Shown: piece by piece, positions 828-21,476 of the stretch
Layout: each line of letters opens with the position of its first letter
How positions within the stretch are numbered: position 1 is the first letter of the stretch
NCBI RefSeq assembly: GCF_000003815.2
Contig: NC_049983.1
Coordinates: 7,644,530 to 7,708,529, forward strand
DNA: 64,000 nucleotides
From: Branchiostoma floridae
Taxonomy: Eukaryota; Chordata; Leptocardii; Amphioxiformes; Branchiostomatidae
Direction: 5' to 3'
Translations under genes and position numbers: made by a program
The notes under the pieces: generated by a model
Seen by the model: only the letters and a program-made list of their open reading frames with translations
Databases searched by the model: none
Told to the model about the DNA's origin: nothing

Positions 828-1038
828 CTCCACCAGTTTCTCCCTCTCCTCAGCATGTTTCTTCTCCATCTCCCTGACAACCGCCTCCTGCCAGGCCAGA
901 GCATCCTCCTCATCCTCCGGTACTGGTACTGCCTCCTCCGTGTGCTCCCCCCTCCCCTGTCCCTCCTTCCTCCTCCTCCTCCTCTCCTCCAGTCTCTCTC
1001 TGGCCAGCTGCTCCTGACGGGCTCTCTCCTTCTCTTTT
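828..1038 (-). CDS. Coiled-coil gene, exon 24 (last exon visible)
   Basis: A 211-base exon with a TCTCCTAG acceptor and a GAG/GTGAGA donor. Its phase fits exon 23 exactly (GC plus A gives Ala). It encodes KEKERARQEQLARERLEE, a Glu/Pro/Val linker, and then EKKHAEEREKLVE, which resembles the KYDALREKL motif, so another unit probably starts here. The gene therefore continues beyond the left edge. I found no convincing further exon between 1 and 827. Confidence 0.75.
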
Positions 1039-4000
1039 CTAGGAGAAAAAAGAAAGGACCACAAATGGGATAAGTTTAGGTTTGGTTTGGATCGGATCTC
1101 CATTAAAGACTGATACATCACTACTCCTCCTGGAGTCCAGGTGAGGGATGTAAACACCACTGTATGGCTGATACGCGACGGAGGTTTGCCGGGCCTCCAT
1201 CCGGGTGATTGTAGTGAGTCACAAACTGTAAACAGAAGGATTTTGAACCATCGCACACCAGGACATGCCCCTACACCCTAAACACATAAGATACATGTAC
1301 ATGTAGGAACGGATTATAAAATGTTCCTGCTTATGAATACTTTCACATCTCACTATCTCCAAAGAAAAACGCTTGGACTGAATTGGAGTATGTAAAAGAA
1401 ACAATGTGGTACAGCAGGTATGTATGATTTACTCCTCCAATACAAATTTCTTATGTTTGACAAGTTTGACAAGTTTATTCAACATGTACAGACTAGCAAG
1501 ATGTCCAATTGGATACATCTTGAATTGCGCTGGACATCACAACCTGTAGGTCCACTTTATTTACACTAAAAACAATTGTGCCATTAAAATATTCGTAAGC
1601 CTAATCTCATTTAGATATCAGGTCCGTCGTGCGGTTATCTGTTAAATATAATCATTAAAAGAAGAATCAGTTACAGGTAAGCTCAAGAAAACATATCAAA
1701 TCACAAATCCAATATGGAGCGGTGACTAGCGGTGTTAGGAACCCATTATGAGTTTAAGAGTTCTACCATGAATGGGATAGGTGAGTTCTTACAACAGGCT
1801 GTTCGACACAAAGGCATATTCAGTTTGTATGAGTTGCGGGTGAGTCGTGCAGAAATGTCCTGCTGAAGGGGAGGCAACCAGTCACGGAACTCGGAGTTTA
1901 ACAGAGATGTGGCGAATGAGCGACAAATGCTGACCCGACGATCTGACAAGGTGGTGAGGTTCAAGGTCTCCATTGCGGGACTTATAGCTGTGGTAACAAA
2001 GCCCAAGAATTATCTTGCAAGCCCTCTTCTGGATGCGTTCCAGGCTAGCGGTTTGTTTCACAGTGAGGGAGGAGTGCCTTATGAAATCAACTTGATGTCA
2101 CATTAATTTATTTTCTTATTTGCGACAGCAAGCATTTAATACAGCTTTGTATCAAAGATAATGGAAGAAAAAGAATTTCATTGTAATGTCTTACGCAGCT
2201 TCGCTTGACTGTGCCAGTCCCATCACGATTGCTGCCGCCTCAAAGTTGTCCTCCTGCCGTGCTCGCCGCTGTTCCAGCCTCAGTCTGGTCAGCTCTGCCT
2301 GCCGCTTCCTCTCGCTGTCAACCTGCGCGTCTGCGGTCTTTAAACTGGCCAATAGGGCTTCCTTTTCCTGTAGACAACATCGTAAAATAGTCGCACATTC
2401 AAGTATTTATATCAGAGACAAGACTTTGACGTAATTTGAACAGACGTTTCAAAAGTAGCAAGGTGTTTGTTGCAAGAAACAAATGCTAGACAGTGCTCCC
2501 TTTTCAAATTGTTTTGGGGGGTGCTTTCAGTGTCTCTTTGGCCCTATATGTTGCCTTTTGTATGGTAGAAGCCATCTAATTGTATGACAGGTTATTGCAG
2601 GATTCTGCCAACTGCATTCATTCCATTAATAGTGAAATCAGATTTTTGCACATTTTTGCATCAATTTGCTAAATTGATCTATTCTTCAACAAGGAACAAT
2701 AAAATATTCTTTTCCCAAAGAAGACTTAGAACTCTCAGAAAAGGTGCGTTCTATACAGGATGTCATGTGGAACAACACATGCAGCAATTAGCAAAGTATT
2801 GGACTGTAAATATTGCCTTTAAGGAAGTACTGTAAATGCATTTAAGTTCGCCGGGATTTAATTTTGCGGTAGCGGGAAAAGGACTTTTCGCGGTGGATTA
2901 AAGTTCGCGGTAACACCATAGACTGCATTCTAATACCATAGTAGAAAAATTTTAATTAAACATTAATCCACCGCGAAAATTTCTGCATTTACAGTATGTT
3001 ATTTTGCTCTCTACTGTCACTCTGTACATGTATTGTCTTTACTTTATATGTTTTTAGATATAATGTGTAAATATGATTGTGCAGACCACAGGAAAGATGG
3101 ATTTACATATTAAACTCAAACTCAAAGAAGACCACTTCCGTACCTCCTCATATCTCTTCTCCAGATCAGCCAGGATGTTTGCAGACAGCTGTTTCCTCTT
3201 CTCCTCCTCCTCCTCCTGCCTGATCTCCTCCTGCTCCAGCTGCTCTGCCTCCTCCTCAGACATCCCCTCCTCCAGCCTCCTCCTCCTCCTGGCAAGCCGC
3301 TCCTTCAGCTTCCTCTCCTGCTCAGCCTTCGTGTCTCCCATCAGACTCTCAAGGTTCTGTTGGTCTTTAAAGGTATCAAGTGTTACAATAATTATAGAAT
3401 TTTGGCATAAAAGTACAAACATTACCCAAACAGGATTACAGCCCACCAACTTTCCCTCAACCGAGACGGGGGCCGATACCAACTTCCAAGCACCTTTTGA
3501 CCCATGGCTGACATCACACTTTTGGCCTGGATGTGTGCCATAGGCTTTGGGTGACATTACAACTTGAAAGGCATCAGAGGACTGATCGAAAGCTTGGTGG
3601 TATGTGCTTTATTTTTCTTAACAGTTTTGAAATTTTAAAGAAATTGTTTCATAATGTTGATAACTGTCACAGATAAACTTCGAGTAACTACAAATATTCT
3701 GAAGTTTGAAATTTTCGTTCGGGTGGACATGTGGACCTGTATGTATTTGGGTCATCTTCGCATTCACAGGTTGTGAGTATTGCTACATGTAAGCAGTGTG
3801 ATAACTTAAAGGTATTATTAGTACTATTACTAAATTCAATTTGTAATACAGAAAAATGACTAAAAACAATGATCTAATAGTTTGTTTTGATCCTGCAGTT
3901 ACTGCATTACATACCTTTAAGGAGTTGAGCCAATATGGCGTCCGCCTCCTCCTGCCGACCCTCCTGCCGCAGTTTCCGCTGCTCCAGTTTCATCTTGATG

Positions 4001-7000
4001 AGCCTGGCCTGCCGCTCCTGCTCTGACAGCAGGGCCCACTCGGCCTCTCCCATCTGTGGATGAAACGTAAGATGTTGTCTGTATTTTCTTAGAATATGGC
4101 TTCAATGCAGTGTAAGCTCAAAACCACTAGATCTAGTACGGTTGACGAATATGCAACAATGTTCCCAGTTTACTAGCCTTAAAATTTAGAAACCTTAAGA
4201 TTTTACAACATCCAGCAAGTCAAAAAAAACATTTGTTGTAAATTTTATATCCTGTGAATCACCCCTTGGCGTGACACACCACAGGTTTATTTGTACTCAA
4301 AAGTACAATGCTACATATCCAGACAGATTTACTTGAACCAGTCACACAAGGAAGGACCACTACTCTTTTCCATTACTGCAGTGTGCTCTTTTATATACTC
4401 GAGGGGTGGCTGTCCTCAAACACCTAAACCCTCCATCTAACGTCCTCTCCTAGGGACATTCCTAACCACAGTGAGGTTCTCACATTTCGCCTTAGTGAAG
4501 TGAGGAAAGTCGTGTAAAGTGACTTTGCCAAGGGCAAAAGATCATTGGCATACCAACAGATTTGAATCCAGGACTTCTGGTCTGTTGGTAAACACCATGC
4601 TACTATGCCACAAAACCCCATGTAAATGTTTAGATTTTACAACCAGCATTACAAGTGACAGCTGATGTGATACAGTTACAGTACCTGTTTGGCGAGCGCT
4701 TCAGCAATGAGCTTGTCCCTCAGAGCGTCGTACTTCCCTTCCAGCGCGTCAATCAACTCGTCCTGCCCCGCCTCCTTGGTGACCTCGGGCGCCAGAACGA
4801 CGACGCTGACATTCTCGGAGCGTCCTTGTTTCAGCAGCTCCAGACACTGCTTCTGTACCCCTGCCAGGGTGGGCTCTCCCTGTATACAACAGAGAATATA
4901 GTACATCCATTATCAGAACTAACTTGAACGATCATCATGGTCAATTCGTTCAAGTTCTAAATTCCTGATTCCCACTTCTTGGAAATCATGCAGCGTTTGG
5001 GCAGCAGAGTGTCCGGTCCAGTCTCATGGACACTTTGGGATGATCTTATTCGTTTTTTAATGGGAACATTCTCGATGGACGTAAACCACAATTTGTAGTT
5101 TAGCTGATCTGTCAAGTTGTAAAAGATTAGCCAGCTGATAGGGAGTCCAGTAGGTATCTGGCGACAGAAAAACTTTGCGCCGTAAGCACGTAGGCATGCA
5201 TGGCAATTCATGTTTGTGTGTTTGTAGATCCTTGCATAGACTAAATTATCAAGCTCTTGAGGATTCAAACAGTTATGTGTGACGGGTATTCAATAAAAGG
5301 TGCACAAGTCATAGCCTTATCTTATAGCTATCAAGATATATCTACCAACTTAAGCCATTTCTTTTCCTCCTCACATCTACATGCATGTCACAGAAAATGT
5401 CTTTTCTGTTGATTTCTTACCATGACTGCCGACTGTTCGATGACGTTCTTCTGATCCTTGTCCTGTTCATGGTACAGGTCCTTCAGAACCGACACCACCA
5501 CATCATCATCGGACACAGACACTCCCTTCTCCTTCTCCAGGGAAGACTTGCGGCTGTGTAACTTCACGATGGCGGCTTCCTGTAGGACCTTCTTGTATTC
5601 ACCTGTTCCACCCTTACCTGGGATAACAAGGCATGCATCAAGACATGACTTTCTCAAACGTGCTACAAAATGTATCTTACTAAAATGTGACAAGGACTAA
5701 GTCTTGCAAATGAACTTCGGAAAATTAAGACCAATTCATATTGTTAAAACTTAAAGCAAAATACAAAATATGCATCAAACAGTGCATTCAGTTTGTCTAT
5801 GTTCTATATATTGTGATAGATTAACACATATTAGTGTTAATTCTTAAATCACATACAAATCTATCTTGTTGGTTTATACACTAAGTAAAGAAGGATGACT
5901 GAGTGAGTGAGTGAGTGAGTGAGTGAGTGAGTGAGTGAGTGAGTGAGTGAGTGAGTGAGTGANNNNNNNNNNNNNNNNNNNNNNNNNNNNNNNNNNNNNN
6001 NNNNNNNNNNNNNNNNNNNNNNNNNNNNNNNNNNNNNNNNNNNNNNNNNNNNNNNNNNNNNNNNNNNNNNNNNNNNNNNNNNNNNNNNNNNNNNNNNNNN
6101 NNNNNNNNNNNNNNNNNNNNNNNNNNNNNNNNNNNNNNNNNNNNNNNNNNNNNNNNNNNNNNNNNNNNNNNNNNNNNNNNNNNNNNNNNNNNNNNNNNNN
6201 NNNNNNNNNNNNNNNNNNNNNNNNNNNNNNNNNNNNNNNNNNNNNNNNNNNNNNNNNNNNNNNNNNNNNNNNNNNNNNNNNNNNNNNNNNNNNNNNNNNN
6301 NNNNNNNNNNNNNNNNNNNNNNNNNNNNNNNNNNNNNNNNNNNNNNNNNNNNNNNNNNNNNNNNNNNNNNNNNNNNNNNNNNNNNNNNNNNNNNNNNNNN
6401 NNNNNNNNNNNNNNNNNNNNTGATGACATGACAGTGGCAGCGTCCCCCAGGTCCTGCCGACTACGGTCCTGCAGCAGCTTACTCAGGGAGGGCACGCTCC
6501 TTCTCATGCTTCCTCTGGAGTATCTACACAGTACAGAATAAAGTTTAAGGATTAGTAACCTCTCATCTTTCACCTCATCTATCCCTTAGTCTAATTACAG
6601 GACCATTGGGACATCACAGAAGATTTGGTGACCAGTTTACTCCACCCTTCTTGGTTTTCTGTTCTAAAAGCCCTTCAGCTGCCAGAGTTTCAGCCCAATA
6701 ACATGCTCTCAGTGCCAGGGTTTGATCACTGACCTCCAAAAAGAAACCCTCAAATAAGGCTGATGCCCCTAGCTTACAGATTTCTTGCACTACACGTGTG
6801 CAAAGCTGTTACTTTGGCTGAATGCCCTATCCCAGTGTATTTCCGGGCATGGTAAACAGGGCAAACATCTGTATGATGGACTTGGCAGCTTAAGGGTTTT
6901 ATGCTTCACTTTGTAACCTACTGATTGTACAGCTTATCAAAAAAATGATTCAAAACTAGCAAAGGAAATCAAACATTGGCAAAGTCCATCGCATTGAAAA

Positions 7001-10000
7001 ACAGACATGCACACATACACACTTTGGAGAACTCTGCATTATTGACTCACATGCAGACACACACATACAAACACACACAGCATCTCTTGCTACAGTCAGA
7101 AAATAGTTACTATAGACAATAGTACACCATTTACCCTCATGAGATCACTGCCTCCGCTGTCCTCGAACCTGGTGAGGATGATCAGCACATTGTCTCCAGC
7201 GTTCCACTGCCGCAGCTTGGTCTGCTGTTCACGCAGACGTCTCAGCTCAGCTTCAGACTACACAGGGCACAGGATAAACATTCAATAACATCTTCCCAAG
7301 ACCTCTCAGTTCCTTTGGGTGAGTTTTAAAGTAGTTGCACAGGACAATTCTTGTGGTATTAATGCCAATTTGTCTCTGAAGAAGGTAGCTGATCACAAGG
7401 ACGTACCCATGTGAATGTGGTATGTAATGTTAAATTGGTGTTGCATGACGCTGGCTTTTAAGGCATTGAGGCCACCTCAGTCCATATCTCTTGGCAGTTT
7501 AGCGTCAATTTTGCAAAATGTGTCAACAATTAATCAGCCAAAATTACTGTGACATTACCATGGTAGTTGGCATCAATGCCAGACTACACACTGCAGCATT
7601 AAAACACTGAGAATTAGGGCAGTATTACACACCTCCTTCCCAAAGGTTACTGAAATGACAGCCTGGCAAATGAATCTTAGGATGTGATTGAAGAACCTTG
7701 TTTGGGACACTTGACTCCACTTAAAATATCACAATGGAGATACCTATTGAAAGAATCTAGTGTTAAAACTGTTCCACTCAATTGTGGGCTTTCTTTTGGT
7801 ACATACGATTCAAACATAAAACCCACCTTAGAAGAGAGTGTAGTGAACACAGCCTGTGCCTCCAGGTCCTGTTCCTCGTGCAGGTCTGCCAGAAGTGTGG
7901 TGGTGATGTAGCGATGGGTGATCTCCCGCGAAGGGTGCTGGTTCTCCAGTCGGAACTTTCTCGAGACACTTTTGATAGCTGCGGCCTCTTCAAGAATGCT
8001 GAAGTTCTCATCTCTTGAAGCTGGAAAGAGAAAGATAAATAATGTTTGAACTTATAATCAAAACCAAAAGTTCCCCTGCAGTACTGTAAAAAGCTGCCAG
8101 GGGGGCACAGAATCTAGCCATTTCAAGGTCTACAGGTATATCGACCTATTCACAGATAAAATTTCGATACAATCCATCCAGGCTTTCCCGAGTTATGCTA
8201 TTCATCCACAAATGCACATACACAACCGCAGACACAAATGCTACTGAAATCATAACCTTATTGGCAAAGGCAATATACAATTGTAGTAATGCACCAATCT
8301 ACACATAACGGGGGCCGCCCTAAGACGGTCCCCGTCGTAAGACGGAACGGATTTTTTGCTGATCTTATTATCCATAAGTACACCGTGTTTGTTGCCAGTG
8401 ACTATGCTGATTACAAAGGTAGATAAACCAAGTCCATGCACACAGCTTTAATCTGCATTCCAAGTATACTTTAACATATTTACTTCATGTTTAAAAAAAA
8501 ACAGAATTCTAACAGTAATGTTGACAGTGCTGAATCACTGCGGTCACCGGCCTCTGCGTATTGGCCGCTCGTGTCGCTAACTATACGAACTTTTTCAAGC
8601 AGTCACACAACTGCCATCATGATACACATAAATAAAGCTCCATAAAACACTATGAATATGGGTCTTCAAATGTCTGTTGAGTAGAAAAGCAACCAAAAGG
8701 AAGCGACATAAACATTGCCACCATTGTACTCCCAAGGGAGTGTGGCCATGAAGGTGACAGACTAGAGAACGCTCCAAAGATTTATTTGACTGTAACAAAT
8801 GATTCGTGCTGTCTATGAAAATAAGACTTGATAGAGAGATGTAGATGATATTTTCATATAATCAGACCGAGTTTTGTTGATGTTAGCGGTGTCGTTTTTT
8901 CGTAATGGTTTTTTTAGTCGGGCATTCACAGTCAGTGCATTCAGCCCATTGCCCGTAAAAACATGAGCTGGATTGTTCTAGGTACAGCCTTCCTCATGTG
9001 AGACAAGAAGTACATACAGTCACGATATTACTGTCAAAAGAAAGCTAAAATATCATATTATTAATTTTTTTCTGTGTACTTAAATTTATCACTTACTTCT
9101 GAAGAGAGCAAAATGTAAAAAAAGCGTACCGAGTTAGGCACACTGTCCAGCGTAGAACAAAATTGGAAGGTAACATACACGAAATAGTCTCACAGTGTTT
9201 GCCGCTTGTAACATGCAGCGCGAAAGGTTCATGAACCACATGAATGCATTTCTTATTCAAGTATGTTGTTCAAATCTATGTGTAAAAAATTCAGCCATCA
9301 AAATTTGACCACTCTCAGGCAACTAGCGATGGAGCGCCATGAGTTTGAGAGCAAGAAAAAGCGTACCGTGTTGGGGCACCTCCCGTTAACTAAACAGTAA
9401 TAAAAACATCTTATATTCTGATCTCAATCACTTGATTGACTGAAAACCAATAAAATCTGCTACAGATAGCTAATAGTAATATTTATTTTTTTATTGTCTT
9501 TTCCAAGTCACAAAAGTCAGCTACAACATGACAAAACAAAGAAGAAATGTACAGATTTGGACTCAATGGGTCTGAAAAAAATTCTGACCAGTCTAAGACA
9601 GAAATTCTTGTTTATCGTAAGGCAAAAGTATGACTTTTAGAGAATAATCTGGTAAAGGGAGATGAAAGGATCTTAAAGTTTATAACTAGAAGATTCATTA
9701 AAAAATTTGTCCTTTGTCTCAACCCGCCCCTTATATAAGGCTATAAGGTATACAGTCTGCTATGGACAACAATTATCATCAATTTTCCAACCAAAGAAGT
9801 CAACTACAATATGACAAAACAATTTCAGCGAAGAAAAATTTAAAAAAATTTGTACAGAATAGGAAAAATTGGGTCTGATAAAAATTTCTAACCATAGGCA
9901 AAAATTATTGAAATATCTTAAGGCCAAAGTATGACTTTTAGAGAATATTCTGACATACTGTAATTCCTGATTTTTACAATATAGTTTTATGTTCAAGGTA

Positions 10001-13000
10001 TTCACGGCGACGCCTGTAATGTGAAATTATCATTACTGATAACAGATATTCGTCTTGGTGAGAATAACAAACCATTTGTTCACCGTGAACATTTAGTTCC
10101 AAGAACAAGTTAAATTTTTTGACCGTGAAAGTCTGGTACTGAGAAGACAAAAAGAATTACAGGAATTATAACAATCCATTAAAATGTTGTCCTTTGTCTC
10201 AACCTAAAAAACATCTGACCAATGAAACAGTCCCGACCTTCTGACTCAAGGTCAAACTTCCTCTTCTTCATCTTGACCTCCACCAGGCGCTTCCGCCTCT
10301 CGTCACTGTCCATCTCCCTGGCGACCTCCCGTAGCTCCTCGCTGGTCTCGTCTCCCAGGAGACCCAGCAGCAGGTGTCTCTCCGCCAGGTGTTTGTTGTC
10401 CAGCGCTCGCAACACCACCTGCTGCCACCCGACGATGTCACCTGTGAAAAAAAATTACAACTTGTGAGGAATTCGTAGGGACTTAAAACATTTTGTGTAA
10501 TGAAAAGTAAGGAAAAGTAGTTGTTTACAGAGTTCTAAGTGGCTGAAACAATCATGATAAGGGGTGAATACTGGTACATAAAATTCAGGTACAGGGCTGG
10601 TTCAGGTCCAGTGGATCAGTTTCAGGTTCAGACCTGAACCTGGACCTGATTGTTTGTGAAAACTTGTATATACTAAAAACAACGGTCCATTTTGCTACAA
10701 GATAATCTGTTTGTAGGAGTATCCAATGCCCATTGGCGTTTCAAAATTCTATCTTCATAAAACGACACTAACTGCCTCTTTATATTTGACAGTAAAAACT
10801 TAGAAATTACTTTTAACTCTACTCTACTTCACTCTAATCCCCAATACAATCTGTTCATTTTCTAATCGATCCAAAATTTGGTCCACTGATCATGTTTCCG
10901 GTCAACATTATTTTCTGTTTTTATCAATCTGTGAGACCAATCCATGAAGAACAACAGGTTTTGCAAAGACCCCTTTGCATTCAATTTAATTGTGTAGAAA
11001 GAGTTCTTGTTGGCTAAGGTCTGACTAAACCTTGTTTGAAACAATATATAAAGAGAAGAAAAACAAAATTGATGTGTCACCTTCGTTTGGGTCTCTTCGG
11101 TCATCTGCGTTCAGTTCTTCCTGTAGGTTGTTCTTCTCGTACGCAAAGTGATTCATCCGCTCCTCTGCCACAGACTGGTACCGCGCTTTGTCTGCAACAG
11201 ATCTGGAAAGCGAGAAAACACAAAACATCCTCAAGGTTTAAGGTTGAACATACCGTTCATAGAGTTCATTAAGATAAGACGCAAATCATAGGTTTTTCCC
11301 CTTGACTTCTGGCTCCCAATTTTTTTGCTACCGCTTCAGCAATTTAATCTTTCATATTTCCTGGAAAACCTGTTTTTCGAAGCATTTTTTGGTCATACAG
11401 ATGTGGTTGTCTGGGTATATACTTCCTTGTACTAGTGCACGATACTGGTAATGCAGCCTGAAAGGGCTGAACTAGCATTACATATAGAAGTGTAGAAGTT
11501 AGTATGATATGTCAGGTGTAAATCAAATACATCTTTTTTATTTTTGTACAATTTTCTTACTTTTAAAGTTTAATCACAGGTGAGTTTGTAAAGGTCAAAC
11601 ATCCAGATATCAAACAATATTCAAATACAATTCAATCTCTACAACTGGATAAAACACTGACGACTGAGATTTACAGGTGAAAAAGAAACCCCCGAACAAG
11701 GCAGAAGTCCCTAACTTCCGGGGTTTGTGCGCTACACGCACGCAAAGCTGCTACTTCGGGGGAATATGCTATCCCGGATATATCTGGGCACGGCACACAG
11801 GGCATGTATATGTGTGCCGGATATATCCGGGCTTGGCAGTTTAAGGGTTAAAACTTTGTCATGTTGCCCCTAAATCAGAGGACATCAAATGCAGATATGG
11901 AACTATACAATGCTTAAGTGCACACATACACTGACTCTTTCTGAAATCTACTGATGACTGCATACCTGCCACTGGTCCAAGCCCGTATCCTCTCTGCCAG
12001 CCCCACGATGAGGGCTGCCGGGATGAACATCCCCTCCTTCTCCACCCTGTGTCTCTCCCTGCGCTGCCATACCAGCTCAGACTGATAGATGGCGTCGTGA
12101 CTGTCCTGGCTGTCGTGTAGCAGTGTCAGGATCAGCTCCATCTCCTCCTCAAACCTCTCGTGTAGCTCAGCCAGCGGGTTGGCTGACGTCTCGGGGTAGG
12201 TGGGCTCTTCTATGTCTTGTTAGAATATAGATAGAAAATTCATATTTTAAAAACCATGAAGTTCATATCTTCGTATCAGACCTGAGGTAAATGGAGGTCC
12301 CGTGTTTGAGGAAAGACACAACTCGAGCATTTTAAGAGCCCGCTGCACTTAGCGAAAAGAGAAGGGGTCTTTCTCTATATAAGCAGATCAAAACTACAGT
12401 TTAAATGGGGTAAGGAATTGCCTGTCATATATTGAGCAGCCTTTGTAACCCCTCCTTCTCCTATTGGGTCAGTTAGTCCTCCCTATTAGCAACCAGTTGA
12501 CCTGGTCTAAATGAATGTATTTGACCTAGAGAGGAGCTGACACAGTTACATGTAGATGTAAACTGTAACCTCAAAATGTCCTTCATATCATACTCAGAAG
12601 TGACCTTTGTGCCTTTTTTCAAAATAATTTTTAAAAAGCAAAATCTTTTCACTCAGCTGGTTAGCAAACATCTCTGCAAAAGTAGCTATAGGCTTTTATA
12701 CAATGTCATACATATCTTGTTGTCCAAAATATGAGAAAAAATCATGAGCCACTTTGAATGACTTTGAACACCATTGCTTTATGCTATATCCAGTAAAAGA
12801 CTAAATCAAGTTTCTGGATTATCCTTTTAATAAAGTAGAAAAGATAATGACCAAAAGATCACTTACCAAAGTTGTCTTCAAGATCTGCGGCAGTCTTTCC
12901 AGTGTCCTTTAAGTGTCGGAAGACCCGCTTCTCAAACGACAGTCTCAGCTCTCCCATTAGCTTCATGATCCCAGGAGGAGTCTAGGATGAGAGAATTGAA

Positions 13001-14988
13001 TATGACATCAGATTTAATGATAGTATACCAAACCTAAAAAAGTGTAAATTTATGTAAAGTAAGACCATGTTGATTCGATTATATGGATGACATTCTATCT
13101 CAGGGAATCCCAAAATTTCCAAGCATGCAAATGAATAAATTTTAGCCAAAAAAAGTTGAGTTCTGATCATAAAACCTTAGTGGTCATGAAGCTTAGAGGA
13201 TGATATAAAGTGAACACATATTTCCCCAAAAAATTAGTCAAAGTTCCATGTGACAGGGATGTCCATGAAATACAAGTTTGTGAGGTACAAATCATAGCTG
13301 CATTTACCTTGAAGTGTTGGCCTAAGAGCTCGGCCATGTCCTCAGTGTTGGCCTCCCGTCTCAGGTTCTGTTCCTTAGCCTTCATGCGGGCCAGCTCGTG
13401 TTGTCTCTCCTCCTCAGGTAAGGAGGTGTTGGTCAGGATGGACACCACAAACAACTTCTCTCTGGAACAAACAAGAAAAGTTTTTTAGGTCACTTTTCAA
13501 GTTGAACAGGACTCCTGTTCTGAATGACAACAAAACGCATCATACACTATACTGTGCCACCCTATCCTTGGTACTGAAATGCATTTTTTCACCTTGCACT
13601 AAAATATTCCCTCCCATACCCTAGTGCAAAGACCCTTCTTCCATCATAGACTATAATGTACCACCTATACTATAATAGCCTTGGTACTGAGATGCATTCT
13701 TTTATCTTGCACTACAATGTTCCCTCAAATACCCTAGAGCAAAGAATTTTCTTCCATCATATACTACAATGCTGTAACACACAGATTCCGGCCAGCCCAG
13801 TGTGCATCGTTCCCTCTGATTGGTCAGACTTTGCATCGACACTGCATCGACAGTTGGTGTCATTACGAGCATAAATAATTTGGCCGCTTTGCTCACTTGG
13901 TAGTTTTATTCGTTGGTTAAAGCAAAGGCCCAGGCGTTATGCCACCATATACACCTCAGGGCGGGTCATTAACCCTTAAGTGTTTATTTCTATTTATTAG
14001 TTTTGGCTGTTCAGCACGCACAGCCAGGGCTGCCCAAAGCCTGTGGCTATTACCATTAGGGCTAGCCCTGCTGACAGAGACAAGGACTATACAAAATACT
14101 GTAGATGTATCCTGCTCTGTTCCCAAAATAATAAAGAATGCATTTCAGTACCAATGTTATAGGTAATACATCATTATAACCAACATGGAAAAGGGCCTTA
14201 CTGAAAAGTTGTTACTGACCTGAGGGCGTCGTACTTCTCCTCCACAGCTGTGTACAGCACCTTCTCCTGGTCGGACAGCTCAAACGTGCCCAGCACCACG
14301 GCGGACAGCTGATCCAGCCACTCCTCACGACACGAACGCTGCTCCTGCTTACGCTGGTGGTTCAACTCCTTAGCCGACTGGAAAACAACAACCCACATCA
14401 GTTCCGACATTAGTTAATGACTTCCTCGTCCAATCAGTTTCTCCAGTTACACTTCATGTACTTGTTCTGCCAGTTCATTCTAGTGATGCTGAAGAAGAGT
14501 GATGATTGCCACTCAAAATGTTCGGAAGTGATTGGTGTAGTACCAAGTTGTATAAGATTAAATTGTTTTTAAATATTTGTTACCATCATATTAAAAAACT
14601 ACACCAAAAACTGACACACAATATTCACTGCAATTATGGCATGCCAACATTGACGCTAGAATAAGTACACTTTACTAAAGAATAAATTTATTTTGAATCC
14701 ATTCATTACTTCCATTATACTTTCTAGTTAATTTGGCACCGAAGTAACTGTTATGAAACACACAAACAAACACATACATTCAAATACACACAAACACGCA
14801 CTCAGAAACACACACACACATACACCAAAAACACACATACACACAGCGGCCAAAAAACAATACTTAACTCTCTACAAGCCATGCCAGAAAAATCCCTCTG
14901 TCACATACAGTATGAAGTACAAGTATGTCTGTTCCAGCCCCACCTTGCCCTGCATGCCCAGTAGTGTGTTGGTCCACTCCATGTCCTG

Positions 14989-15048
<60 letters not shown>

Positions 15049-18000
15049 ATACAAGTATGTCTGTTCCTGCCCCACCTTGCCCTGCATGCCCAGAAGTGTG
15101 TTGGTCCACTCCATGTCCTGTTTCTGCTGCACATCTGCTAACACTGAGGCAGACACCACGCTGTCCTGTACACTCCTGCCTCCCAGGGTGTCTCTACGAC
15201 TCTCCCAGTACAGACCTGCCGCTTCCTGGGAAATCATGTTTGAAATCCAAACGTAAAGGAGATATGATAAAGATAGATGTACTACAGGCACTTAAGAACC
15301 CTCCTCCCATATTTTACCTAAAAAATCATGCTACAGAAACAGTAAGGATAACTTTCTGCCCTCTGCCAATAGACCAATCCAGACTGACCATCACAATTAG
15401 CAGAGAGAAAGTCAATGGTAATTTACATGTAGATGTTCAACCTATGAGAGAGTGGTCCATCAAATATTTGCATTTTTATGTTCTAATTTTGCATACACTA
15501 CATTTTGACTGGAGTGAATGAGGCTATGGGATCGGTCTAAGGGACGTTCTGCGTGTCCTTTCTCTGTAAAGCATAGGCATTCTATTTTAATTTCCTGTAA
15601 TTTGTAGGGAAAGCCATCTTATTCAAGGTAATGCAAAGCGAGGCAACCAATTTGCGCTTTTGCCTTTCTTAATTTTAGCGTGATATGTAGGGGGTTCGTA
15701 AATTTTGGTGTAAAGCGTTGTTGGGATCCCCCTATACAGACCTTCCCAGAAGCATAAAGAAGATCAAACGATGAGGATCTGATTCAATAATTTGACAAAT
15801 AATTCTAATAATTATAACAGTTGTCAACTATGTAGTTGACTACACTGTAATATGACACTCCAGACTGACCTGCAGAATCTTGTGGTGAGCATTCCTGTGT
15901 GAGACCTTGAACTCTGACCCACGTGCGCGCCACTGGTTCCTCTTCCTGCGCAGCTCCTTCAGCCTCTCCTCCCGCTGTTCCCTGCTCATCTTCCTCGCTG
16001 TCTTGATGGCATGAGCCGCCTCCCGACCTTGAACCAGCTGGATAAGAACCTGTACAACAAGAGAAGATATCTTAGCACCACGTAAAATATTACTGTAAAT
16101 GCAGAAACTTTAGCGGTGGTTTAATGTTCGTGGTTTTCGCAGTGACCGCTTCACCGTGAACTTAAAACTACTGTAAACACTTTTCCATGGCAGTAAAAGA
16201 CTACAGTGCATGGTGCTACCGCGAAATTAGATCCCCGCAAACTTAAATGCATTTACAGTCATGTTGCGGCCATTGGCCAGAGGGCTAGACTCAGGGACAT
16301 GAGCTCAAGAGGACACGTCTTTGATTGCTGGTATTCCTGGCCATCGTCCCTTGAGAGAGGAACTTTTAGGTTAACGTTTCATATCCAAACTGATCCTGAC
16401 TGGGCTGTTTGTTGAAACGAAAAATAGAATTAATGTATATGTAAAAATATGCACATTCAAATAATGCCTTCAACTATAATAATTCTCTAACTTTATGTCT
16501 TGTTTGGTGTATCTTATATCAAACTTTTTGTTCCTGAAAGCTGCCCAGCCAGGCCCCGGTTTGGAAATGTGATGTACATTTGTACATCAGGCCTAACCAA
16601 CTTTCCTTCACACAACCCACGTAAACATAGGCTGTGGAAGGTGAGGGAGTACAAATAAAATTTTACTACAAAAAAGACCAGATATTACTTTCTTTTAAGA
16701 TATATAAGGAGGAAAAGAAGCTGCACTGATCACCTCTCTCTCTGCTGCCTGTTTCCTGGTCACCTCCCTCCCCACAGCCAGCTGCAGGTCGACGACCCCC
16801 AGCCCCTTCCCGCTCTTGACGTGGTCCTCCTCCGGCACCTGCGCCTGTCTCCTGCCCTTCCGCTGGCGCAGCCGCTCAGCTGCCAGCTGTTCCTGTCTGC
16901 TGCGGTCACTGTCATACCTGGGGGAAGGGGGGGATATTCATATTCACATTCTTGCTATCTCCTTTGGACCAATCAGGGTTGGACAAGTTTTCAAAAATTC
17001 ACTTGTCCTATTGGGCAAGTACATAAAAAATTTACTTGTCTGAAATATGACATTTTTCTAATATAAAAGTAAAATGTATTTTCACTTCCAGCATTGGCCC
17101 CTATTAGGGGCTCTATTTTAATGTGTTGACCAATACTTGATGCCATGACTGTGAAAAGTAACAAGTATATCAAAATCTCACTCATGGAAAATATTTTTGC
17201 TTGCCCATTCGGGCACTTTCACTTGCCCTGGACAATCGGGCCAGTGGACTAGTCCAACCCTGGCCAATAGAAAGATTATGTAGCATGTGTAGTCCAGTGA
17301 TTAGCAACCCTGCCTTTGGACCAAGAAGTTGGGAGTTGAATCCAAGCCACTGTTGCATGCCCAATATACAAACTAAAAAGGGTTCCAGTAGTTGAGGTCT
17401 ACTGTTCATTGCACTTGTTGAAAGAGCTGGCACATAGTGTCTGTCTTCTCTGTCAGGACCAGTGGAAGATAACGGTCTTTAGTGAGCTAAACAGTGAAGC
17501 AGTCCCTATAGAAAGTTTAACATAAAACCTCAGGTGACCAAACAAACTTCAAGAATTCTGTAACAGCATTTCAGTCACCTTTGAGCCCTGTATGTCTGGA
17601 ACCTCTCTGCTATCCCTGTAGCGAGCAGGGCGGTGTCAAAGTTGCCCTCGTCCCTCGCACACCTGTGTTGTCTCATCAGGTACACCAGCGCCAGGATACG
17701 CTCAGACACGCCCAGAACCAGGTTACCGTCCGCCTGCAGCTTACCGAGCAGCGTCGACTTCTCTAGCTCATAGCGCTGCTGGAGGTCACTCAGGAGGTCA
17801 CCTGTGGTCGTTGACCCTGGAGAGAACAAAAGAAAACATGTATTGTGGTACAAAATGCAAACCGCTACATAAAATACAAAACTGACATACCCTAAGGCTT
17901 TCATTTACTGTAAAAAGTTGTATTGTTACAGTGTAAGCACAATCAGAAGTTTCAAAGGAAAAAAGGCCTGTGTACTTAAAATCTTATATATGTCCTCCCT

Positions 18001-21000
18001 TTTGGCAAGTATTAGTTCAAGTAATTATGGGTTTGTTGGATTTGAGAATGGGACTTAAAGCCAAAGGTCCTGTGTTTGAGGAGAGCCACACCTCAAGTAT
18101 GTCAAAGTTCTAACAGAAAAAGTAGGGGTCCATCCTGGTGTGAGTGGATCAAAATTTACAATCAAGGTTTTACGTATATATAGCTTTTACTTACTGTACA
18201 TTGTACTTACTGTGCAAATCTTGTTTGCTATGCTTATAGACAGTTTTACAGCTATACAAAACAAACAGTCAAAATGATAAACTTTTTGATATTAGTTGTT
18301 AAAGGAAAATGGCAATCAATAACGAATGGTACTTAAATATGACACTTTCTACAACTTACCACTGATGAAGTCTCTGTAGTTGTTCTCCAGGATCTGATAA
18401 ATTTCCTCATCAGACCTCCCCTCCTCCATAAACCTCTTGGTTTGTTCCATCTGGTCCTCCTGTCTCTTCTTCTGGTCGTCGTAAATCTCTCCCATCAGTG
18501 CCCAAAGATTCTGGTCACGGGGCTGTCCGCCGCCGGGCAGGGTGGGTGCCTGATCTAGCTGTTTGCTCTGGAAGAGCTGGTCAGCCTTTAGTTGTATCTG
18601 GAGCACATGTTCCTGCCTTTCACTCTCTGACAGGGACAGCCAGTTTCCTTCACCTGTGTGAAAGATAGACAGTTTGTGAACCGTGAAGATTGCCTTGGAC
18701 AACAAGATTCTTTTACTAGTATTTTGTGGATTTTGAAAAGGTGAAGATACTGGATTCTAAACAGGATTACTTTCTAAGGGGAGTGAAAGAGGCTAGATTC
18801 AACCTTCCCTCAACTGAGATGGGGACCGATATCGACTTCCAAGCAACTTTGACCCACTGCTGATGTCACACTTTCAGTCTGACTTTGGGTCATTTCAACT
18901 TAAAAAGGATCAGAGGACTGATCGAAAGCTTGGTAAGTGCTTTATTTTGTGCATTGATTTAAAGTGCAAAATTGTATGTACAATCAAGTTGAAATAAATC
19001 TGTCTCTAGTCTACACAGAGAACTTGTGTCACTCCTCATCCCCTAAAATCTATTGTTTCTAAAGACAACTCACCAATGTTGACCTTGACCATCTCCTCTA
19101 ACAGCCTCTCCCTCAGTAGCCGGTACTTCTCGTCCAGAGCGGTCAGCAGCTCGGTGACCCCCACCCTGTCCCTGGCCCTCCGCTCCATGTCCTCTCCCCA
19201 GTCTGTCCCGTCATCAAAGATAACGGCCTCAACACCGCCTTTGTTCCACCTGAACATGACAGGGATGGTTGTTAAGAAATTTTGCTGGTACATGTACTGT
19301 AATTCACTTTGTCTTCTCGGTATCAAACTTTCACGGTCTGAGAAAATCTAACTTGTTCTTTAACTAAATGTTCACGGTGGCAGCAAGTGCACATGAAAAA
19401 GTCTCTTATATTATTTGTTATCAGTAATGTTAAGTTCATGTTACAGTCCGCACTGTGAAAACCGTGAACATAAAAGTACATTGAAAAAAATCAGGAATTA
19501 CAGTACTTAGCACCAGCTATGTATCGATTGAGGTATTGGTTGGATGGATGGTTTGGTAGGTCAATTCAACATAGCCCTTCTAAAGATCCTTCCAAATGTA
19601 TTGTTATGCGGTCAAGTCAGGATGGCCGAGCAGTCAAAGGTGCTGCATTCAGGTCGCAGGCTGGTTCTTAGGGCATGGGTTCGAATCTTTCTATCTTTGT
19701 TCAACAAGTCCCATGTACCTGGTTATCTTTCAGAAAATAGGCCAATTAATATTCAAGACTTTACCTGCTCTTTTTTCATTTTAATTTGCTTAACATTCAG
19801 GCTTTTTTCCAAAATTCGTATCAGCCAGCTTTTTCAAAAGCATTCTTGTTTACTAAGATGGTAATATAAAATTGGACCAGATTAGTCATGTTGTCCAAAA
19901 TGAAAGAATTCCCAAAGCATGCTAATATAGTAATAAAAAAGTTTACAAAACCAGACATTACCAATAATACTATCAATGATTTTTGCTAATTGTACTCATT
20001 TCCCACCTGTTGAGTTTCCTGCGACCATGGTACTTGAACTCAGCCTGGTACTGGTGTTGTTGTCTGGCCTCAGCAGCAAGAGTGTGGTCATCTTCCTGTT
20101 AGTAAATAAGCATTTATTTAGAAAAATACATGTAGGATAACATTATTTCAATTAGGTTCACATTTTTTTCTAAAATCAAGTAGTTATCTCCTCACAAAGA
20201 GTACAAAGTTACACAAAATTAAATGTTTCTGGGCTTCTGGCAAAAGTAGGCTCTTCATGCTGTTGGGACAGTGGCTTGTTAATTCACCATGTCTGATAGT
20301 GCAGTAATGGAAGGCAGAATCCATCCAACATTCCCACTTTTTCCATCATCTTTTACCTCCCCAACCAAAGTCAGGAATCAAACCTATGACCTCTCTATCT
20401 CGTGTCTGCTAACCTTGTCCCTCGGTTTTACAGTCAAACGTACAGTTAGCCTTATTTACATAAAGATCATAAGGATTTCAAATCACCAGAGCTGGATACT
20501 CCACCAAACAGATCCCTTTGTAGCAAAATGGACCAATTGTTTTCAGTATTGCCAATTCACAAGTTTTCACAAACAATTAGGTCCAGGTTCAGGTCCAGAC
20601 CTGGACCTGATCCTCTGGACATTAATCCGACCTGTACCTGACTTTTCTGTACCGGTACCCACCCCTAGTCTCACCTGTAATTTGAGGAGTTCCTCCCGCT
20701 CCTCCCAGTCCATCTGTGTCCTCTTGTTGACTAGCTCTTCCTCCTCTTTCTGTGCCTCCTCCTCCCCACAAGGGTCTCCCTCCTCCGGCAGCATGCACAG
20801 CCACATCTTCATCTCATCAAAACAGACGTCGTCCTCCGGATCCACGCGGGACGCCACAAACTCATTCCACATCCGGAACGAGAACTTCTCGCCGTGGGTC
20901 GCTCGGAAGAGAAGCAGCGCGTCGTTGGGACGGAGTCGGTGACTCCCGTCCCTGTCTAGCGCCTGGAAGTCCCAGTAGACCTTTTCTTCTAGGCATTTTC

Positions 21001-21476
21001 TGCGATCGAGTTCCATGAGGACGTCGACGAAGTGTTTCTTGCTGCACCTGCCCTGTGCGGTAGTCCCGCATATCTGTGATACAGCTGCCTGCGCATGTCT
21101 GATGTCCACCTTGTTATGAAAGTAAGACAGCTGTTAGCACCCCTCCACTCTATGTAACTTAGTATAGCCCGACATTAACATTGAATATTGTGTGCTCTCT
21201 CTAAGAACTGATGCCTGAAGAAAGTTCAAACAAACAAACTGGAGTTGAGCACAACATCAATGTACACAGTACTAACCCTACACTTGAATAGATTCATTAG
21301 CAGCATCAAGATTTTTAAGGTCTCTGCCTGAATCAATACTAAGTAACCTACAAGGTGAAACATACCTGTTCATAGTACAGGGCCAGGTAGAACTCCTGAA
21401 GTTGGTCAGGTAGGAGGTAGCCTTGACGGGAGAGGTCCAGGGCATCAAACACTGCGTCAAAGTCCACCTCAGGCAT
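828..21476 (-). CDS. Large EF-hand/coiled-coil protein with repeated exon cassettes (24 exons seen; 3' end off window)
   Basis: This is one minus-strand gene reconstructed from splice sites. The visible exons sum to about 4.4 kb (about 1,470 aa), and reading phase is kept across every junction except at exon 18 beside the assembly gap. The start is ATG at 21476. The N-terminus has EF-hand-like loops. The rest is rich in Glu, Arg, Lys, Gln and Leu (helical, coiled-coil) and built from repeated modules marked by KYDALR, ERQ and LMGE motifs and by a GNF(D/E)xA(A/L) helix. I see no signal peptide or membrane segment, so it is probably intracellular and may be structural. No family is recognised; automatic annotation might call it trichohyalin-like because of composition, which says nothing about function. 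The exons are described in the block entries that follow. Existence of the gene is well supported; function is unknown. Confidence 0.9.
1746..2090 (-). mobile_element. LINE relic: C-terminal end of a reverse-transcriptase ORF
   Basis: Reading the minus strand gives LERIQKRACKIILG, then after a frameshift TLSDRRVSICRSFA, FRDWLPP, NMPLCRT and SPIPFMVELLNS followed by a stop. This order is typical of the last hundred residues of many invertebrate non-LTR retrotransposon polyproteins. The frameshift near 2010 shows it is dead. It sits in the coiled-coil gene intron between exons 23 and 24. Confidence 0.75.
2107..2112 (-). terminator. Candidate poly(A) signal for a short isoform of the coiled-coil gene
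   Basis: AATAAA on the minus strand, about 80 bases past the alternative TAA stop (2193-2191) made by reading through the exon 23 donor. Together they could end a shorter transcript. AATAAA is common by chance in AT-rich DNA, so this is only suggestive. Confidence 0.4.
2195..5617 (-). CDS. Coiled-coil gene, exons 19-23: fourth repeat unit
   Basis: Exons: 5421-5617, 4685-4879, 3915-4053, 3144-3364 and 2195-2367, phases consistent. Exon 19 has YKKVLQEAAIVKLHSRKSS and VVVSVLKDLYHEQDKD (the EAA/SR/EQD module). Exon 20 has NVSVVVLAPE followed by LIDALEGKYDALRDKLI, the clearest KYDALR copy. Exon 21 has WALLSEQERQARLIKMKLEQ. Exon 22 has NLESLMGDTKAEQERKLKE and EEGMSEEEAEQLEQ, the LMGE module, and is almost entirely Glu/Arg/Lys/Gln. 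Exon 23 has EDNFEAAAIVMGLAQ, the GNF helix. Exon 23 can be spliced at a GTAAGA donor at 2194, or read through to TAA at 2193-2191. Confidence 0.88.
2828..2996. mobile_element. MITE family 1, copy a (short)
   Basis: Bounded by TACTGTAAATGCA and its complement TGCATTTACAGTA. The interior is rich in GCGGTGG/CCACCGC and GCGGGAA motifs. The outermost TA on each side could be the Tc1/mariner-type target duplication. This copy is 169 bp, against about 212 bp for the full form. Confidence 0.88.
3423..3615. repeat. Dispersed repeat P, copy a
   Basis: Shares AAACAGGATTAC, CTTTCCCTCAACCGAGA, GACTTCCAAGCA-like and GAGGACTGATCGAAAGCTTG, then GTGCTTTATTTT, with 18755-18950. It lies in the intron upstream of exon 22. 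Type unknown; the end resembles a LINE or SINE tail. Confidence 0.75.
4395..4621 (-). mobile_element. tRNA-derived SINE (minus)
   Basis: On the minus strand, TGGCATAGTAGCATGG resembles a pol III A box and GGATTCAAATCT a B box. They are followed by GCCCTTGGCAAAGTCACTTT, then TCCTCACTTCAC, similar to the body shared by several metazoan SINE families. Confidence 0.65.
5896..5962. repeat. (GAGT)n microsatellite running into the gap
   Basis: About 16 copies of GAGT end where the N run starts, so the gap probably arose because this tetranucleotide array could not be assembled through. The apparent His-Ser-Leu-Thr reading frame across it is meaningless. Confidence 0.97.
5963..6420. other. Assembly gap (458 N)
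   Basis: A run of N inside the coiled-coil gene. It truncates exon 18 and may hide further exons of the third repeat unit. Confidence 1.
6421..8020 (-). CDS. Coiled-coil gene, exons 16-18: third repeat unit, cut by the assembly gap
   Basis: Exons: 7827-8020, 7135-7257 and 6523 down into the gap at 6420. Exon 16 has ILEEAAAIKSVSRKFRLE and TTLLADLHEEQDLE, matching exons 9 and 19. Exon 17 has LRQWNAGDNVLIIL, matching the VVL segment of exons 10 and 20. Exon 18 opens with ILQRKHEKERA in the frame required by exon 17 but then meets a stop. The neighbouring frame reads on as SLSKLLQDRSRQDLGDAA until the gap. One extra C near 6490 would explain this. The rest of this unit (KYDALR/ERQ/GNF parts) is presumably in the gap or was lost. 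Confidence 0.8.
6738..6905. repeat. Dispersed repeat Q, copy a
   Basis: AAAGAAACCCTCAAATAAGG, GTGCAAAGCTGTTACTTTGG and GGGCATGGTAAACAGGGCA align in order with 11684-11850. About 170 bp; copy a is more decayed. Confidence 0.75.
9498..10204. repeat. Local duplication in the intron after exon 15, second copy split by a MITE
   Basis: 9498-9728 and 9786-10204 share AGTATGACTTTTAGAGAATA, TTGTCCTTTGTCTCAACC and a series of smaller matches. The second copy is longer only because MITE family 2 copy a (9956-10162) lies inside it. The second copy ends 33 bp from exon 15. Confidence 0.82.
9956..10162. mobile_element. MITE family 2, copy a
   Basis: Left end TACTGTAATTCCTGATTTTT, right end AAGAATTACAG. 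The interior has GTTCACCGTGAACATT and related CACGG/CCGTG motifs. It splits the second copy of a local duplication just downstream of exon 15 of the coiled-coil gene. Confidence 0.85.
10238..15225 (-). CDS. Coiled-coil gene, exons 9-15: second repeat unit
   Basis: Exons: 15076-15225, 14220-14377, 13308-13461, 12867-12981, 11966-12215, 11081-11202 and 10238-10441, phases consistent throughout. Exon 9 gives the EAA...SRR...VLADVQQKQD module. Exon 10 gives VVLGTF and then AVEEKYDALR, which is completed by EKLFVVSIL in exon 11. Exon 11 also has LPEEERQHELARMKAKEQ. Exon 12 has IMKLMGELRLSFEKR, the LMGE module. Exon 13 has PLAELHERFEEEM and then FIPAALIVGLAERIRAW, the GNF/GLAER helix with the GNF altered. 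Exon 15 has another ALDNKHLAERHLLL plus SDERRKRLVEVK pair, a diverged KYDALR/ERQ module. Confidence 0.88.
10556..10706. mobile_element. GGACCTGAACCTG family element, copy in the coiled-coil gene intron
   Basis: GGGGTGAATACTGGTACA at the left, then GGTTCAGGTCCAG and AACCTGGACCTGATTGTTTG, then TGTGAAAACTTGT and TCCATTTTGCTAC. The same order, reversed, is at 20520-20668. Confidence 0.78.
11684..11850. repeat. Dispersed repeat Q, copy b
   Basis: AAAGAAACCCCCGAACAAGG, CTACACGCACGCAAAGCTGC and GGATATATCTGGGCACGGCA. GGATATATCYGGGC appears twice inside. Lies in the intron between exons 13 and 14. Confidence 0.75.
12285..12385. repeat. Dispersed repeat R (second copy at about 18050-18165)
   Basis: GGTCCCGTGTTTGAGGAAAG, then AGGGGTCTTTCTC and AGATCAAAA, resembles GGTCCTGTGTTTGAGGAGAG, AGGGGTCCATCCTG and GGATCAAAA at 18075-18160. 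It also resembles the SINE body at 4395, so it may be a SINE tail. Confidence 0.55.
13057..13165. mobile_element. MITE family 3, one end only
   Basis: AAGACCATGTTGATTCGATT followed by ATATGGATGACATTCTATCT and AGGGAATCCCAAAATTTCC matches the left half of the 52295 element. No right end follows. It lies in the intron between exons 11 and 12 of the coiled-coil gene. Confidence 0.7.
13541..13770. repeat. Two-copy tandem repeat, about 105-bp unit
   Basis: CTTGGTACTGAAATGCATT, CTTGCACTAAAATATTCCCT and CTTCTTCCATCATAGACTAT recur about 110 bases on as CTTGGTACTGAGATGCATT, CTTGCACTACAATGTTCCCT and TTCTTCCATCATATACTAC. Located in the intron between exons 10 and 11. Confidence 0.85.
14919..14994 (-). 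pseudogene. Duplicated tail of exon 9, stranded in the intron
   Basis: Bases 14919-14994 repeat 15051-15126, which is the 3' part of exon 9 plus its splice donor and following intron. The copies differ at only a few positions and are separated by a (GT)n run. The copy still encodes MEWTNTLLGMQGK and keeps the GTGGGG donor but has no acceptor of its own. It is an exon fragment, or a potential alternative donor that would need the GT run to be translated. Confidence 0.8.
14995..15045. repeat. (GT)n microsatellite
   Basis: About 25 GT units in the intron just after exon 9, lying exactly between the two copies of the duplicated exon tail. A looser CA-rich tract lies at 14754-14845. Confidence 0.97.
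15870..20095 (-). CDS. Coiled-coil gene, exons 3-8: first repeat unit
   Basis: Exons: 20007-20095, 19074-19249, 18360-18653, 17579-17816, 16734-16917 and 15870-16049. All have GT-AG borders and matching phases. Exon 4 carries ALDEKYRLLRERLLEE, the first copy of the motif seen later as KYDALR. Exon 5 begins with WLSLSESERQ and ends with LMGEIYDDQKKRQ and EEGRSDEEI, both of which recur in later units. Exon 6 contains SERILALV and DEGNFDTALLATGIAERF, the first copy of the GNF helix. Exons 7 and 8 are highly basic coiled coil. Exon 8 ends in HHKILQ, which continues into EAA in exon 9, starting the next cassette. Confidence 0.88.
16091..16261. mobile_element. MITE family 1, copy b
   Basis: Starts TACTGTAAATGCAG and ends AAATGCATTTACAG, with the same GCGGTGG and CCGCGAA interior as the other copies, and an internal deletion. 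It lies in the intron between exons 7 and 8 of the coiled-coil gene. Confidence 0.88.
16974..17262. mobile_element. hAT-like non-autonomous element, CAGGGTTGGAC family, copy a
   Basis: Begins CAGGGTTGGACAAGT and ends GTCCAACCCTG. The interior has repeated TTGCCC/GGGCAA and ACTTGTC. CCAAT occurs at both flanks, offset by one base on the right, which is consistent with a short target duplication. Confidence 0.85.
17275..17400 (+). mobile_element. tRNA-derived SINE fragment (plus)
   Basis: TGTAGTCCAGTGATTAGCA (A-box-like) and GGGAGTTGAATCC (B-box-like) about 40 bases apart, directly after a hAT-like element. Confidence 0.55.
18755..18950. repeat. Dispersed repeat P, copy b
   Basis: Same orientation and motif order as copy a: CCTTCCCTCAACTGAGATGG, GCTGATGTCACACTTT, GAGGACTGATCGAAAGCTTG. 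It lies in the intron upstream of exon 5 of the same gene. Confidence 0.75.
19295..19505. mobile_element. MITE family 2, copy b
   Basis: Inverted relative to copy a: TACTGTAATTC at the left, ATCAGGAATTACAGTA at the right, with AACTTTCACGG and CCGTGAACATAAAAGTAC inside. It starts 46 bp beyond the 5' end of exon 4 of the coiled-coil gene, in the intron before it. Confidence 0.88.
19616..19698 (+). pseudogene. tRNA-Leu(CAG)-derived pseudogene or SINE head
   Basis: GTCAGGATGGCCGAGCAGTC matches the 5' half of animal tRNA-Leu. A CTGC/GCAG anticodon stem flanks a loop with CAG, and GGGTTCGAATC is the T arm. The 3' acceptor strand (CTATCTTTG) no longer pairs with GTCAGGA, so it is unlikely to be functional. 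Confidence 0.7.
20520..20668. mobile_element. GGACCTGAACCTG family element, inverted copy
   Basis: GTAGCAAAATGGACCA, then ACAAGTTTTCACAAACAATT, AGGTCCAGGTTCAGGTCCAG and TACCGGTACCCACCCCTAG. It is the reverse complement arrangement of the 10556 copy. Its right end nearly touches the donor of exon 2 (20675). Confidence 0.8.
20675..21476 (-). CDS. Coiled-coil gene, exons 1-2: start codon and EF-hand-like N-terminus
   Basis: Exon 1 is 21366-21476 (37 codons) and exon 2 is 21109 down to 20675 (145 codons); both junctions are phase 0. Exon 1 has a degenerate EF-hand-like loop at residues 14-25 (DLSRQGYLLPDQ), lacking the usual acidic twelfth residue. Exon 2 has a more convincing loop at residues 89-100 (DRDGSHRLRPND), with Asp at positions 1, 3 and 12. 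Between and after them lie helical segments, then an acidic stretch leading into coiled coil. Calcium binding by the second loop is plausible but not shown. A pyrimidine-poor TACAG precedes the ATG by 12 bases, so the 5' UTR may be split by an intron, with its first exon nearer 22000. Confidence 0.88.

Follow-up and report, generated by a model that had tools for sequence, protein, structure and literature searches.

We analyzed a 64,000-nucleotide stretch of the Branchiostoma floridae genome (contig NC_049983.1, positions 7644530-7708529; hereafter, the window), whose minus strand carries a long gene predicted to encode an EF-hand-like head followed by tandem helical repeat units. Splice-aware dynamic programming with simple splice-site scores placed 24 exons between an ATG at 21476 and position 828, and the borders of exon 17 were revised after the first model (7257-7135). 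The 24-exon model matches the exon numbers of a first-pass annotation of the window, which had described an unrecognized giant coiled-coil gene, preceded by EF-hand loops and built by repeated duplication of an exon cassette. The exons in the window are listed below from the start codon onward, with the unit and module (M1 to M6, including M3b) to which each belongs; SRa and SRd designate sub-repeats.

Exon 1, 21366..21476, minus strand: start codon plus the initial EF-hand-like portion of the head; resembles the first exon of a second gene (the C204 gene, described below)
Exon 2, 20675..21109, minus strand: remaining head domain, with a charged linker and, at residues 89-100, one near-canonical EF loop
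Exon 3, 20007..20095, minus strand: opening of unit 1; first part of M2
Exon 4, 19074..19249, minus strand: unit 1 M2; VIF segment, EKYRLLRERLL
Exon 5, 18360..18653, minus strand: unit 1 M3 and M3b; SESERQ, ALMGE, EEGRSDEE
Exon 6, 17579..17816, minus strand: unit 1 M4; GNFDTA...GIAER; one whole SRd sub-repeat, predicted to form three helices
Exon 7, 16734..16917, minus strand: unit 1 M5 spacer, followed by the beginning of M6
Exon 8, 15870..16049, minus strand: unit 1 M6 (SRa sub-repeat)
Exon 9, 15076..15225, minus strand: unit 2 M1, EAA...LADVQQKQD; ends in phase 0
Exon 10, 14220..14377, minus strand: unit 2 M2; AVVLG, EEKYDALR
Exon 11, 13308..13461, minus strand: unit 2 M3; PEEERQ
Exon 12, 12867..12981, minus strand: unit 2 M3b, LMGE; diverged (z of 0.8-2.1 against other M3b copies)
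Exon 13, 11966..12215, minus strand: unit 2 M4; GMFIPAALIVGLAER
Exon 14, 11081..11202, minus strand: unit 2 M5 spacer; diverged (z of 2.0-2.7 against other M5 copies)
Exon 15, 10238..10441, minus strand: unit 2 M6 (SRa sub-repeat)
Exon 16, 7827..8020, minus strand: unit 3 M1, EAA...LADLHEEQD; ends in phase 0
Exon 17, 7135..7257, minus strand: first half of unit 3 M2, NVLIILT; ends in phase 0
Exon 18, partial, 6421..6523, minus strand: runs into Ns; the frame joining exon 17 hits a stop and another frame is open; no module assigned
N run of 458 N, 5963..6420, no strand: breaks unit 3; an assembly gap or a withheld stretch
Exon 19, 5421..5617, minus strand: unit 4 M1; ends in phase 0
Exon 20, 4685..4879, minus strand: unit 4 M2; VVVLAP, KYDALRDKLI
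Exon 21, 3915..4053, minus strand: unit 4 M3, SEQERQ; 65% identity to unit 5 M3
Exon 22, 3144..3364, minus strand: unit 4 M3b spacer; SLMGD, EEGMSEEE
Exon 23, 2195..2367, minus strand: unit 4 M4 (SRd sub-repeat, together with part of exon 22)
Exon 24, 828..1038, minus strand: unit 4 M5, followed by the beginning of M6; beyond this exon, the gene goes on to the left of window position 1

The coordinates 828..21476 cover the in-window part of the gene only. Exons of the same type continue past window position 1 in L009, down to window coordinate -8537, giving a minimum span of 30 kb and about 2,085 residues; in the predicted model, exons 1 to 17 (1059 residues) and exons 19 to 35 (1026 residues) are stop-free. 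L010 and L011 hold more charged helical frames, of which about 319 residues were listed, and a candidate last exon with a stop near -20407. With this loosely joined tail included, the gene would tentatively reach about 42 kb and 2,400 residues. The chain search could not include the tail frame at -12757 to -12942, which is open in phase 0 and so does not fit the phase-1 end of modelled exon 35; splice scores are also poor at several borders farther along the tail. The resemblance of the -12757 to -12942 frame to the M5 spacer speaks for tail membership.

Units and modules

Searches of the region with 22 module queries gave 136 tblastn matches at an expect value (E) of ≤0.1, self-matches included; 136 of 136 lay on the gene strand and none on the opposite strand. 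Along the gene, the modules recur in the order M1-M2-M3-M3b-M4-M5-M6. Unit 1 (exons 3 to 8) has no M1, unit 2 spans exons 9 to 15, and unit 3 (exons 16 to 18) is followed by the N run; unit 4 comprises exons 19 to 25, while units 5 (exons 26 to 33) and 6 (exons 34 and 35) lie in L009. Units 1, 2, 4, and 5 are complete or nearly so, with lengths of 379, 395, 424, and 462 residues, respectively, and units 3 and 6 are short. Relative to unit 4, identity is 44% for unit 5, 31% for unit 2, and 30% for unit 1.

Among the motifs by which the cassette had originally been recognized, EAA...LADL..EQD was found in exons 9, 16, and 19, the VVVL-type segment in exons 4, 10, 17, and 20 (as VIF, VVL, LIIL, and VVVL, respectively), and GNFxxA...GLAER in exons 6, 13, and 23, in degraded form in the last. 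KYDALR (exons 4, 10/11, and 20) and SExERQ (exons 5, 11, and 21) were likewise recovered, except that the copies of both reported from exon 15 belong to M6, a sub-repeat that is different but homologous. An assignment of exon 15 to M2/M3 was rejected, since module homology puts this exon in M6. LMGE...EEGxSxEE stands in exons 5 and 22, but exon 12, the third place named for it, has LMGE without the second half.

Pairwise module scores, expressed as z from 200 shuffles each, exceeded 4 in 39 of 55 same-module pairs versus 17 of 410 different-module pairs. The 16 same-module pairs short of this value comprise one M1, seven M2, one M3, four M3b, and three M5 pairs, and all seven M2 pairs involve unit 3 or 6. 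The abundance of E, R, Q, L, and A in the region inflates similarity scores, and this composition, together with the 17 different-module pairs above z = 4, could mean that the likeness reflects coiled-coil composition and heptad convergence with no duplication at all. For 18 of the 21 different-module combinations, however, the median z was between -0.4 and 1.2, and two of the three exceptions (M1-M4, M3-M4, and M3-M5, with medians of 2.3-3.3) are sub-repeat pairs. With the heptad-keeping shuffles and the intron coincidences reported below also against it, convergence is extremely unlikely.

Units 4 and 5 form the closest pair, with a synonymous divergence (dS) of 2.55 and a nonsynonymous divergence (dN) of 0.47 over 405 codons. 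Four further unit pairs were computed and gave dS of 1.29-3.63 and dN of 0.72-0.77; synonymous sites are near saturation, so that dN/dS ratios are rough. Even so, the units were duplicated long ago, and their copies appear to be under constraint.

At a finer scale, the 3' end of exon 9 and its splice donor are duplicated (window 14918-14994 and 15050-15126; 77 bases, 97%, flanking a TG run), which may mean either that small duplications are still occurring or that the assembly has produced the repeat.

Intron positions and phases

In a six-unit protein alignment carrying 30 introns, 17 between-unit intron pairs fell within one column of each other, 15 of them in matching phase. When introns were placed at random, with their numbers and phases kept, the means were 2.29 coincidences and 0.84 same-phase coincidences, and neither observed figure was reached in any of 5000 trials; when phases only were permuted, the observed agreement was reached in 10 of 5000. 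The border following M1 is in phase 0 in five of five units (exons 9, 16, and 19 and two beyond the window), as had been stated for the exons ending the EAA module, and the border following M4 is in phase 2 in four of four. Because intron position and phase coincide between units, in agreement with module homology and the conserved module order, the intragenic tandem duplication of a multi-exon block that the first-pass annotation had proposed is well supported.

Three observations count against a single gene of regularly copied blocks. The border between M3 and M3b is not uniform, since unit 2 has it in phase 0, units 4 and 5 have it in phase 1, and in unit 1 no intron separates the two modules; the 458-N run (5963-6420) interrupts unit 3, dividing the model into two halves; and exon 18, at the edge of the N run, keeps no single frame. 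The locus may instead be a tandem array of two or more neighboring duplicated genes, which also leaves matching exon phases, and the single-gene model is a prediction from sequence. Nevertheless, only one head copy was found at this locus, the other being on C204, and the junctions of units 1-2, 2-3, 4-5, and 5-6 are all in frame and stop-free. We consider such an array quite unlikely and take exons 1 to 24 with their continuation, as predicted, to be one gene.

Within window 5896-6523, the N run adjoins a TGAG tandem repeat; given the frame break in exon 18, this stretch may contain an assembly error or represent a broken allele.

A nested sub-repeat of short helices

Each full unit consists of four copies of a sub-repeat of ~60-80 residues and two spacers. 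Single hhalign comparisons gave E values of 1.2e-6 to 2e-3 in five of the six sub-repeat pairs, and in those five none of 20 column shuffles and none of 20 heptad-keeping shuffles reached the observed score. This inner repetition escaped the first-pass annotation, as did the continuation beyond the window and the second gene that carries the head domain; both the extent of the gene and the depth of nesting in its repeat exceed the first description.

A structure model of M4 (exon 6), built from three aligned copies, predicts three helices at residues 4-28, 34-55, and 59-74 (mean predicted local distance difference test [pLDDT] score, 74.9; predicted template modeling [pTM] score, 0.55). In alignments, the "VVVL" segment, which had been read as a strand, falls on the last sub-repeat helix. 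Hydrophobic residues (LIVMFYW) showed a periodicity peak at 3.75 residues, where z was 4.6 with a window of 21 and 4.5 with one of 28; the corresponding values were 3.4 and 3.6 at 3.67 and only 2.1 and 1.6 at the heptad period of 3.5. With alanine counted as hydrophobic, the signal was gone and z was negative at 3.5. A tropomyosin control yielded z of 4.5-13 at 3.5 in the identical test. Helical moments were 0.21-0.43 in four helix-A segments and, over the first 18 residues, 0.09-0.20 in four helix-B segments. A classic heptad rod is a poorer fit than short packed helices, and with so weak a heptad signal and a peak at 3.75, not 3.5, "giant coiled coil" is overstated. Neither a hydrophobic start nor a membrane span was found in the parts computed (hydropathy peaks at 1.15 over 19 residues and averages -0.14 over the first 25).

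The head domain and a second gene that carries it

The EF-hand-like head occupies about 150 residues encoded by exons 1 and 2. Residues 1-150 scored 27.6 bits against Pfam EF-hand_7 (E of 3.9e-6), under the cut-off of 30, and residues 8-139 aligned weakly with the four-EF-hand kinase domain 3l19 (E of 0.0018). One near-canonical EF loop, DRDGSHRLRPND, was picked up by a loose pattern, and a PS00018-like pattern detected no loop in the head; the earlier mention of EF-hand loops is therefore overstated in its plural. A single-sequence structure model of exon 2 was of unusably low quality (pLDDT, 51.8; pTM, 0.32). Like the calmodulin-like domains of calcium-dependent protein kinases and neuronal calcium sensors, the head can be aligned to a four-EF-hand domain; unlike them, it falls under the Pfam EF-hand cut-off and has at most one near-canonical loop. 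Control of the head by Ca2+ is possible but poorly supported.

In a search of the lancelet's own genome (513,431,437 bases in 431 contigs), the head was found at two loci only, this gene and a second one at C204:16503-24000 on the plus strand (L024/L025). The two heads share 31% identity, with E of 9e-5 in one search direction and 6.5e-18 in the other, and by eye the C204 head has a break at the matching place, a putative splice border. The downstream frames of the C204 gene are E/K-rich and without the repeats described here. Within the C204 head, a stretch of ~35 residues occurs three times in one open frame.

Comparison with known families

In scans of ten single frames, the head, exons 1-9, 10-17, 19-28, and 29-35 (all but exon 18), and most of the tail short of its last frame, no Pfam family scored above its cut-off. 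Sequence and fold searches of the PDB returned weak helical or EF-hand matches only, and all nine genome matches of a unit-4 query (exons 19 to 23) lay in this gene. A literature search by title and abstract start retrieved nothing recognizably about this gene, and one motif word was not found in the open-access main texts searched. "Unrecognized" holds in the sense of unnamed by Pfam-A and by PDB sequences and folds only.

The unit profile matched the Cep57 microtubule-binding domain (4l0r and 8ibh) over about 70 residues with E of 7.6e-4, and the M4 profile did so with E of 0.0068. This match is weak and confined to one helical stretch, for which shared helical composition is a sufficient cause. 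Cep57 gave no match in the Pfam scans of this gene; it was also not among the 50 Foldseek matches listed for the M4 model, a listing that does not exclude it. It suggests a possible microtubule setting, although the match is too slight to rely on.

Two known systems resemble the gene in part. In nebulin, small repeats of about 35 residues are grouped into super-repeats. The sub-repeat here is longer, at ~60-80 residues, the units are old (30-44% identical to unit 4), and an EF-hand-like head is present, all unlike nebulin. The likeness is to the NEB triplicate region, in which multi-exon blocks were copied in tandem (eight exons in three repeats, according to PMC9109913); here, module order and intron position and phase are conserved. 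In the parts scanned, the nebulin domain had no Pfam match at E of ≤1. S100-fused proteins such as trichohyalin have an EF-hand-type head followed by a long, charged, repetitive helical sequence, an arrangement that the present gene shares. The repeats of trichohyalin sit in one large exon, whereas those here are spread over many exons with conserved phases, and the S100 domain had no Pfam match at E of ≤1, head included.

The gene may also be the lancelet copy of a catalogued animal protein, whether one bearing an automatic trichohyalin-like or golgin-like name or a named ciliary or centrosomal protein. The name searches covered Pfam, the PDB, and the own genome, not animal proteomes; moreover, the unit-4 query points to a single locus, the neighboring gene has a hemerythrin-like start (sub-cut-off, see below), and the unit profile has its weak likeness to Cep57. 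On the other side stand the Pfam scans, the PDB searches, and the motif word missing from the main texts. We rate this identity at slightly less than an even chance.

Neighboring genes and dispersed repeats

The gene lies head-to-head with a plus-strand neighbor near 22596, whose first exons gave a sub-threshold hemerythrin match (E of 6.9e-4; 20.5 bits against a cut-off of 25.3) and which we take to be FBXL5-like. Beside these exons is a minisatellite of TTCAAATGTTCAGATA-type units (window 23604-24000). On the same strand as the repeat gene, L011 contains at about 2017-3894 (minus) a 626-residue open frame, apparently the next downstream gene, with leucine-rich repeats and a membrane span by eye. 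Three open frames in L012, L013, and L014 (C5:7585100-7614799) carry EYTGSMYEGTKFGQPDEFDIMVVIDGSED-like segments, presumably the catalytic motif of cGAS-like/Mab-21 nucleotidyltransferases, and may form a small cluster. The intron between exons 23 and 24 holds two dispersed repeats (window about 1458-1998 and 1064-1274) with many genome-wide matches at 71-96% identity. The minus-strand frame in the repeat at about 1458-1998 had no Pfam match above cut-off; it is reminiscent of the end of a non-long terminal repeat retrotransposon protein.

Proposed origin and role

We favor, at somewhat better than even, a single gene encoding an EF-hand-like head and tandem helical units that arose by exon-block duplication, with a sub-repeat nested inside them and a cytosolic, elongated scaffold as the product. 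The sequence shows that the small repeat was duplicated first, making a block of about seven exons, and that this block was then duplicated in tandem to give the units. The resulting protein would comprise the head, tandem units of about 380-460 residues, and possibly the charged helical tail. We infer a cytosolic elongated scaffold because the protein has no hydrophobic start or membrane span, its helices are charged, and its super-repeats are regular. By analogy with other super-repeat proteins, the helical repeats may form a rod by stacking or may engage a linear partner at regular intervals, offering evenly spaced binding surfaces along the scaffold, and the head could be a protein-binding or weakly Ca2+-responsive cap that recruits a partner or is itself recruited. 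A bolder version, which we regard as rather unlikely, would make the sub-repeat an undescribed family, the protein a lineage-restricted (lancelet or deuterostome) cytoskeletal or ciliary rod with a ruler length set by block copy number, and the head an undescribed EF-hand-derived domain shared with the C204 gene.

Tandem copying of exon blocks is already well known from nebulin and titin, and for this reason the surprise is limited, unless the repeat has a new fold or a lineage-specific role. Both the helical repeat and the head domain are unnamed in the Pfam copy searched. The lancelet gene is a clear case of a large protein made by two rounds of intragenic duplication, of which the intron positions keep the record.
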